Assembly (NCBI GenBank): GCA_034520365.1
Contig: JAXHNP010000002.1
Location: 186,001 to 250,000 of the forward strand
Origin: Desulfobacterales bacterium
Lineage (GTDB): Bacteria > Desulfobacterota > Desulfobacteria > Desulfobacterales > Desulfosalsimonadaceae
Direction of reading: 5' to 3'
Length of the DNA: 64,000 bases
Shown here: positions 23,045 to 23,339 of the stretch, one piece after another
How the letters are laid out: each line of letters begins with the position of its first letter
Numbering within the stretch: position 1 is the stretch's first letter
Notes under the pieces: generated by a model
The model's database searches: none
Told to the model about the DNA's origin: nothing
What the model saw: only the letters and a program-made list of their open reading frames with translations
Translations under genes and position numbers: made by a program

Positions 23045-23078
23045 CAGTTTTCCTCCTTTTTTAAATTTGCCGTCAAAT

Positions 23079-23109
23079 AAAAAAGCCCCGGGGTGCTCCC
23101 CGAGGCTTT
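23079..23109 (-). terminator. Second (proximal) attenuator terminator of aroF-pheA
   Basis: On the minus strand GCCTCGGGG-AGCA-CCCCGGGGC is followed by six T. It lies 35 bases before the start codon, so it is inside the leader. Its left arm (23098-23109) can instead pair with the right arm of the first terminator (10 Watson-Crick pairs plus one G-U), which links the two switches. Confidence 0.85.
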
Positions 23110-23117
23110 CTATCCAT

Positions 23118-23159
23118 AAAAAAAGCCCCGGGCGGACTTAAAATGTCCACCCGGGGCTT
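23118..23159 (-). terminator. First attenuator terminator of aroF-pheA
   Basis: On the minus strand AGCCCCGGGTGGAC, a loop, then GTCCGCCCGGGGCT and seven T form a strong intrinsic terminator 18 bases after the leader-peptide stop. Its left arm (23145-23154, CCGGGTGGAC) can pair with 23185-23194 (GTCCATCCGG) as an antiterminator, nine Watson-Crick pairs and one G-U. Confidence 0.88.
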
Positions 23160-23176
23160 AAGATTATAAAATTGGC

Positions 23177-23260
23177 TTATGCCGCCGGATGGACGCTTCT
23201 AAAGCTAAAAAAGAAGCGTCGGCAAAAAAACTCGCGATTGATATGTCGGTAATCCGGCAT
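23177..23260 (-). CDS. Phe-rich leader peptide (pheL-like) of the aroF-pheA attenuator
   Basis: A 27-codon ORF (ATG at 23260, TAA at 23179-23177) precedes the aroF-pheA fusion. It begins MPDYRHINRE and holds six Phe: two at codons 11-12, three at 16-18 and one at 20, all within ten codons. The Phe codons overlap the left arm of a perfect nine-pair hairpin (23212-23220 with 23192-23200). A ribosome stalled there for lack of charged tRNA-Phe would cover that arm and free region 2. This is the arrangement of E. coli pheL, though the peptide sequence is unrelated. The ribosome site is weak. The peptide probably has no function beyond being translated. Confidence 0.82.
   Translation of the reverse strand: MPDYRHINREFFCRRFFFSFRSVHPAA
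23185..23220 (-). promoter_or_regulatory. Pause hairpin and antiterminator arm of the Phe attenuator
   Basis: GACGCTTCT (23220-23212) and AGAAGCGTC (23200-23192) form the 1:2 pause hairpin inside the leader ORF. Bases 23194-23185 (GTCCATCCGG) overlap its right arm and can pair with the left arm of terminator 1, so the 1:2 and 2:3 structures exclude each other. Confidence 0.82.
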
Positions 23261-23310: not shown

Positions 23311-23339
23311 CTTTTAAATGGGTTTACAGCTAATGTCAA
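23311..23339 (-). promoter_or_regulatory. Candidate sigma-70 promoter of the leader and aroF-pheA
   Basis: On the minus strand a perfect TTGACA (23339-23334) is followed after 17 bases by TAAAAG. A stronger -10-like TATTAT lies about 12 bases further on but has a poor -35. Either would start the transcript some 30-50 bases before the leader ATG. Confidence 0.4.

Follow-up and report, generated by a model that had tools for sequence, protein, structure and literature searches.

The pheL-pheA and trp-type attenuators of gammaproteobacteria combine a leader peptide containing codons of the cognate amino acid with mutual exclusivity among the RNA pairings 1:2, 2:3 and 3:4, and with a stop codon whose position lets the ribosome cover arm 2. 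The textbook attenuator takes one decision at one terminator. Leaders with more than one terminator have also been described. The erm(K) leader of Bacillus licheniformis is reported to encode a leader peptide and to have two adjacent Rho-independent terminators (PMC4335068, PMC5418344). The mgtCBR leader of Salmonella contains tandem attenuators with two ORFs that respond to two independent and additive signals (PMC3641672), and the rimP-leader of some gammaproteobacteria can have two tandem terminators, of which the upstream one has a potential antiterminator (PMC2965389).

The locus described here lies on the minus strand of the window, by which we mean the whole 64-kb stretch of DNA that was analysed (Table 1). 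Judged from its anatomy, its conservation and the covariation of helix 4:5, it is very probably a ribosome-mediated Phe transcription attenuator with a built-in relay. As the earlier note had claimed, and as direct reading of the minus strand bears out, a short ORF rich in codons for the product amino acid precedes the fusion gene; it encodes MPDYRHINREFFCRRFFFSFRSVHPAA, with six Phe within ten codons. An antiterminator (2:3) and a terminator (3:4) exclude each other by sequence and pairing, and two predicted intrinsic terminators, T1 and T2, stand between the leader ORF and the biosynthetic gene. The six arms were found where they had been placed before, exactly or within a few bases. Helix 1:2 has 9 pairs, 2:3 joins GTCCATCCGG (23194-23185) to CCGGGTGGAC (23154-23145) through nine Watson-Crick pairs and one G-U pair, and 4:5 joins CCCGGGGCTTT (23132-23122) to AAAGCCTCGGG (23109-23099) through 10 Watson-Crick pairs and one G-U pair; the pair counts proposed earlier for 2:3 and 4:5 are those read from the DNA. 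The 4:5 duplex, at -23.5 kcal/mol, is better than those formed by arm 4 with all 18 unrelated terminator-like hairpins in a control drawn from the 64-kb window, the next best reaching -21.5.

Table 1. Positions of the leader, its RNA arms and the downstream gene in the window
Feature	Position	Strand	Remarks
Promoter-like site	23311..23339	-	TTGACA 23339-23334, 17-nt spacer, TAAAAG 23316-23311; read from sequence
Phe leader ORF	23177..23260	-	ATG 23260 to TAA 23177, 27 codons + TAA
Arm 1	23212..23220	-	GACGCTTCT; also holds the Phe codon cluster
Arm 2	23185..23200	-	23200-23192 = AGAAGCGTC, pairs with arm 1; 23194-23185 pairs with arm 3
Terminator T1 (arms 3:4)	23123..23159	-	15 pairs, -32.1 kcal/mol, then T-tract; predicted
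Arm 3	23145..23159	-	Sequence
Arm 4	23122..23137	-	23132-23122 pairs with arm 5
Terminator T2 (arms 5:6)	23081..23110	-	-22.8 kcal/mol, then T-tract; predicted
Arm 5	23098..23110	-	23109-23099 pairs with arm 4
Arm 6	23081..23093	-	Sequence
Shine-Dalgarno AGGAGG of fusion gene	23052..23057	-	Sequence
aroF-pheA fusion gene, 625 aa	21167..23044	-	DAHP synthase (FXD + DAHP_synth_1), prephenate dehydratase, ACT

In the window, the leader ORF itself has a weak-looking Shine-Dalgarno. An alternative leader frame from ATG 23280 (MKQRIKPCRITD..., 38 aa) was rejected, as relatives have no comparable ORF in that frame. The promoter-like site is not listed by a strict promoter scan of the window, its -10 element being weak, and TTGAC is found at most 130 nt 5' of the leader start in 139 of the 144 leaders with enough upstream DNA. 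T2 is absent from a simple terminator scan of the window, which does list T1. The Pfam domain order of the fusion protein is DAHPS ferredoxin-like, DAHP synthase, prephenate dehydratase (PDT) and ACT; the domain search reported no chorismate mutase domain in it, and the nearest named relative of the gene comes from a Desulfobacterales metagenome-assembled genome (84%), so that the window presumably stems from a sulfate-reducer-like bacterium of that group. No Rfam leader family reaches its gathering score anywhere in the window. With E values up to 10 allowed, no Phe leader came up in the Rfam search, and His_leader matched below threshold, with 30.6 of 49 bits; the sub-threshold matches were regarded as generic hairpin or tandem-hairpin matches and none was adopted.

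From this anatomy we infer how ribosome stalling, termination at each hairpin and kinetic capture of arm 5 by arm 4 would act together. When Phe is short, the ribosome would stall at codons 16-18, the Phe cluster within arm 1, allowing arm 2 to pair with arm 3 and thus blocking T1; arm 4 would then be free to capture the emerging arm 5, T2 would be blocked as well, and RNA polymerase would enter aroF-pheA. When Phe is sufficient, the ribosome would reach the stop codon and cover arm 2, and 3:4 would form and terminate; behind a polymerase that had passed T1, arm 5 would be left free, and 5:6 would form and terminate transcription. A single sensor would in this manner govern two successive gates, both with the same polarity.

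Folding calculations are consistent with this sequence of events. In a model that assumes a ribosome edge 12 nt downstream, as well as the footprint size and the timing, an A site on codon 16, 17 or 18 leaves arm 2 clear, and for the transcript through the end of arm 3 no fold is better than 2:3 (-25.2 kcal/mol); with the A site on codon 20 the best 2:3 fold falls to -15.1. That 2:3 is favoured at codons 16-18 fits the conservation of an FFF triplet, which is present in at least 120 of the 147 distinct leaders described below. In stepwise folding with 2:3 already formed, 4:5 (-20.7) takes the lead once arm 5 is out and still leads when 4 bases of arm 6 have emerged; 5:6 overtakes it only at some point between 4 and 9 bases of arm 6. 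At equilibrium the fold with 3:4 and 5:6 reaches -68.0 and the fold with 2:3 forced reaches -59.0, the latter containing 5:6 and not 4:5. Since equilibrium favours the terminator folds, the relay would need kinetic control, as in known attenuators.

Conservation was followed by drawing orthologous fusions from two collections and reading their upstream DNA. A leader with arms 1, 2 and 3 in the same frame stands upstream of 35 of the 36 fusion loci from this and related groups, and was not found at L102, the sole exception; so regular a recurrence goes beyond chance. In these 35 loci arm 1, the loop and arm 2 encode roughly GRFFFxFRSVHP, and the stop codon follows 2-17 nt past arm 2. The 12 more distant fusion loci (L018-L022, L024, L026, L027, L029-L032) gave no anchor match. 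A covariance model built on arms 1-4 (R1) found matches in 112 of 291 genomes of the order and in 168 of 389 genomes of a class draw that overlaps the order draw; plus-strand R1 matches, which overlap the true ones, were taken as palindromic stems read backwards. Once 99 regions had been added, there were 168 loci with an anchor and 147 distinct leaders, duplicates being removed by identical leader sequence only; the loci are not independent samples. Family codes are the tool's own, except that fa and the families of L004-L023 were assigned by likeness.

All 147 leaders have at least three Phe codons and 144 have at least four (median 6). An ATG start is present in 140, and in 142 of 147 the stop codon follows arm 2 at a distance of 5 nt (109) or 2 nt (33). 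The downstream gene encodes a DAHP synthase in 137 cases and PDT alone in 4, and none was recognised in 6, some of which have little downstream DNA. The leader is not restricted to fusion genes, because DAHP synthase and PDT occupy separate open frames behind it in L193 (genome G037), and the first gene after it in L156 and L187 encodes an ACT-domain pair protein. Phe leaders upstream of the ACT-domain pair protein (Pfam ACT_8) were seen in L156, L187 and L223; in genomes G203 (L153, L156) and G043 (L101, L223) this leader is an extra copy beside that of the DAHP synthase. In the seven f31 loci (L213, L215, L217, L218, L220, L224, L228), Trp codons stand among the Phe codons beside the stall site (for example MGRFFCWWWFRSVHPGR), and the 3:4 U-tract is weak in six; going by its codons, this switch may sense Phe and Trp together ahead of DAHP synthase. 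A similar stretch, TTCAAGTTCAAGGAAGGC...AACCGCAGGAATACT, occurs at L083 and L304 in two genomes of the family, that of L083 lying between T2 and the fusion gene, and is perhaps an interspersed repeat.

Both hairpins are usable in 141 of the 147 leaders, which carry 26 family codes; L203, L212, L216, L219, L221 and L231, with T2 missing, broken, masked or cut, were omitted from the 4:5 pairing tests. The anchor was not found in L102, L104, L223, L225, L226 and L227. On later reading L223, L225 and L226 have both hairpins and the 4:5 duplex; no Phe leader was found in L226, where the contig starts, and the sequence of L227 contains Ns.

The helices of the classical part are well preserved. In alignment A1, 1:2 is paired in 95.7% of cells, and 1:2 and 3:4 taken together are paired in 94.4% of 802 cells (35 sequences), and 5 pairs show changes in both partners. 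Helix 2:3 is paired in 99.4% of 350 cells (35 sequences) without double changes, and is therefore conserved rather than covarying. The Phe codons, the stop position, the exclusivity of 1:2, 2:3 and 3:4 and the gene type are all conserved, which supports the reading as a Phe attenuator; the earlier note had staked that reading on relatives keeping the Phe codons and pairings, and the related genomes do not contradict it.

Helix 4:5 is possible in all 141 loci with both hairpins, at -11.0 to -28.2 kcal/mol (median -19.2), and its columns in a MAFFT alignment are paired in 89.0% of 1545 cells, versus 24-67% for slid registers. Specificity was assessed by a swap test, in which each family was represented by one locus, arms were exchanged between families and the energies were double-centred to remove row and column effects. 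Own 4:5 pairs scored -1.92 kcal/mol against a null of 0.01 (sd 0.46), and none of 200 permutations was as low (P < 0.005, median over 200 draws). The same test gave -3.73 for 3:4, -6.33 for 5:6 and -0.70 for 2:3, and the control pairing 2:5 was null (+0.28, P 0.835). Counted as paired cells with one locus per family, the 4:5 value is 0.883 versus 0.860 permuted (sd 0.013), a small drop because G-U pairs tolerate much. T1 and T2 both have CCCCGGG-like palindromic cores, so that some 4:5 complementarity would arise from likeness alone. In families f5, f30 and fa, 4:5 extends strongly into the T2 apex (CGGTCGC/GCGACA in L010 and CGGTCC/GGACC in L103, for example), and over all families this extension is not significant (P 0.08; loop alone P 0.68).

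The most informative column is core position 2 of 4:5, where the 141 loci have C-G in 88 cases, T-A in 29 (11 family codes), T-G in 3 and no standard pair in 21. In 27 of the 29 loci with T-A, the arm 3 base has remained G, so that 3:4 drops to a G-U pair there and 4:5 retains a Watson-Crick pair. A DAHP synthase tree that includes 129 of the 141 loci shows 11 changes of arm 4 at this position. With the best tree, 10 of 11 independent pairs co-change in arms 4 and 5 and 0 do the opposite (one-sided sign p 0.001); with well-supported branches only, there are 4 independent pairs, of which 3.1 go the same way and 0 the opposite way (median p 0.25). At core position 1, 2.6 of 6 pairs go the same way and none the opposite, and at core position 8 no association was found on the tree (2 same, 0.7-0.8 opposite). 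Co-changes confined to single lineages are CCATTCGGGG with CCCCGAAGG in L157 and L182, and CCAGGG with CTCTGG or CCCTGG in L205, L208 and L243.

The two terminators differ in their U-tracts, a tract being called weak if it has at most 4 T in any 8 nt. Weak tracts follow 3:4 in 20 of the 141 leaders (nine family codes) and 5:6 in 2, the counting frames differing slightly; with equal frames the numbers are 20 for T1 and 4 for T2, and three of these four T2 tracts (L012, L239, L240) are frames set in the wrong arm. The weak-T1 label changes 9 times on the tree, and the 20 loci have a median 4:5 energy of -20.0. Where the T1 U-tract is weak, the ribosome should reach the remaining terminator only via 3:4 and 4:5. 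The domino of pairings suggested by the earlier note gains support here: 4:5 is kept, with covariation, in 26 family codes, and some genomes have lost the U-tract of T1 and not that of T2.

When 395 genomes of the phylum were searched, 16 matches came up, 13 of them beyond the order, and tblastn placed a DAHP synthase downstream in 11 of the 13 regions fetched. In each of the 11, a script picked out a leader ORF with Phe codons, both hairpins are present, and 4:5 can form (-12.5 to -28.8). In 7 of the 11, 3:4 is followed by TGG and has no U-tract, and 5:6 keeps its T-tract. Without a U-tract behind 3:4, any influence of the ribosome on the only terminator would run solely through 2:3, 3:4 and 4:5, and such leaders outside the order are the strongest argument for a relay over a backup terminator. 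L256 and L260 were excluded from the 11. L256 (E 8.6e-5) has by eye an ABC-transporter-like gene, and one terminator was found there. L260 (genome G490, family f125) has a Phe-rich leader, MFREFFSFFYFYFRSLHPG..., a CCATGG core in two successive hairpins and then a class I/II aminotransferase, and by eye appears to follow the same plan with a different core sequence.

Chained leaders are not confined to Phe. A second model, R2, matched 103 of the 395 genomes at E <= 0.001 and was too unspecific for this count to be used. Among the 27 weak R2 matches that were read (8 + 19), only L277, L281, L278 and L299 are leaders of the chained kind, and these four exposed two other chained leader types; the remaining weak matches were judged by eye to be single ordinary terminators and were set aside. 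The weak match L308 (genome G482) lies behind a cobalamin riboswitch (Rfam RF00174, 119 bits) and is ordinary.

One type precedes leuA in family f100, the product being a 2-isopropylmalate synthase above the NCBIfam cut-off. The leuA search matched 21 of 24 genomes, and 16 loci were scored; L314 (90 nt of upstream DNA) and L328 to L331 were left unscored. A chained terminator pair stands 5' of leuA in 15 of the 16 scored f100 loci (L311-L327 range), and in L316 the second terminator was not found upstream of leuA, where another sequence lies. The leaders contain Leu codons, with CTA in all 14 that the script named; at L317 the script did not find the leader. The leuA 4:5 duplexes comprise 10-16 pairs, in most cases interrupted by a bulge or a small internal loop; their median is -24.1 with their own arms (15 loci), versus -14.5 and -15.8 for arms crossed between the leuA and Phe sets. 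Arms 4 and 5 change together in L321, L323 and L326: GGTTCCCGCGGC, paired with GCCGC-c-GGGAA-t-CC, is replaced in L321 and L323 by GATCCCCGCGGC, paired with GCCGC-c-GGGGATC, a bulged a appears in L326, and by eye the final bases lie in the T2 apex. In most leuA leaders T2 has one extra base compared with T1, and its apex follows arm 4. The other type, in family f139 (L278, L299), has an Ala-rich leader, MSRTSTLSAAAAATGSALAAAR, and a chained pair upstream of a class I/II aminotransferase, with 4:5 duplexes of -23.0 and -23.4 in the two loci. The best NCBIfam model of this enzyme is alanine transaminase, below the cut-off, and the leader is possibly an alanine attenuator.

The same data bear on other explanations. 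The locus could be a classical four-arm Phe attenuator followed by a plain backup terminator, with 4:5 a by-product of similar GC-rich palindromic stems, and the CCCCGGG-type cores common to both stems, a cell pairing barely above the permuted value (0.883 vs 0.860) and an apex extension that is not significant overall all lend it something. We nevertheless hold this to be unlikely, given the own-versus-swapped 4:5 energies, the T-A for C-G co-changes in which arm 3 G is kept in 27 of 29 loci, U-tracts that are weak far more often at T1 than at T2, and leuA and Ala leaders that chain despite unrelated stems; a strong terminator without release would, moreover, be expected to block the gene under every condition.

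T2 might also have arisen by duplication or repeated conversion of T1, concerted evolution and not pairing then maintaining 4:5, and the T1 and T2 stems are indeed alike within genomes. However, the 27 of 29 loci with G in arm 3 and A in arm 5 indicate that arm 5 is no copy of arm 3, copying from arm 4 to arm 6 with arm 5 following would need some 10 recurrences, and in leuA leaders most T2s have a base that T1 has not, with an apex that follows arm 4, all of which makes this origin quite improbable. That T2 is a separate attenuator for another signal, be it a protein, a second ORF or a metabolite, has a precedent in the two-signal tandem attenuators of the mgtCBR type (PMC3641672). Here, the spacing of 3-29 nt between T1 and T2 is too short for a second ORF, no further element was seen between them, and the window's leader has no Rfam match at gathering score, so that we give a separate signal hardly any credence. 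A Phe attenuator whose first hairpin relays the decision to the second is the preferred reading.

Across the phylum, it seems rather likely that the six-arm relay is a recurrent design, in which the ribosome's signal would pass through the intermediate hairpin 3:4 to the distal 5:6. Hairpin 3:4 would be a pure relay without U-tract in part of the tree and also a first terminator in most of the order, and the same logic would operate with unrelated stems for Phe (aroF-pheA), Leu (leuA) and probably Ala (aminotransferase). A single decision seems to reach a second gate through RNA strand exchange; this should reduce leakage while full induction is kept. The design also suggests that pairs of arms can be added to an attenuator with the polarity unchanged, and the lineages without a U-tract behind the first hairpin provide natural test material. 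Such leaders would define Phe (and Leu, perhaps Ala) control in the phylum. In the open-access literature searched, mostly at the level of listings, no description of a chained or relay attenuator was found, nor, in the literature searched, one of Phe, Leu or Ala control of this kind in the phylum. The earlier note had called the chained pair unusual; this holds for the chaining via 4:5, which is apparently new as far as the searches go, and does not hold for two adjacent terminators as such, already published for erm(K) (PMC4335068).

As regards the known systems, the Phe leader differs from the rimP-leader, for which the section on it in PMC2965389 gives neither a leader peptide nor a relay, and from the Rfam Phe leader families, which have no match at the window locus. 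The window leader resembles erm(K) in having two adjacent terminators behind a leader ORF, and is unlike it in that an antibiotic-stalled ribosome and a resistance gene are involved there and aroF-pheA here. In contrast to the two ORFs and two signals of mgtCBR, one leader ORF stands before T1 here, and one signal would be relayed between terminators 3-29 nt apart. The pheL-pheA and trp-type attenuators share with the Phe leader the cognate-codon peptide, the 1:2/2:3/3:4 exclusivity and a stop codon placed for the ribosome to cover arm 2; the leader described here, from a different phylum, has two more arms and a second terminator linked to the first by 4:5.
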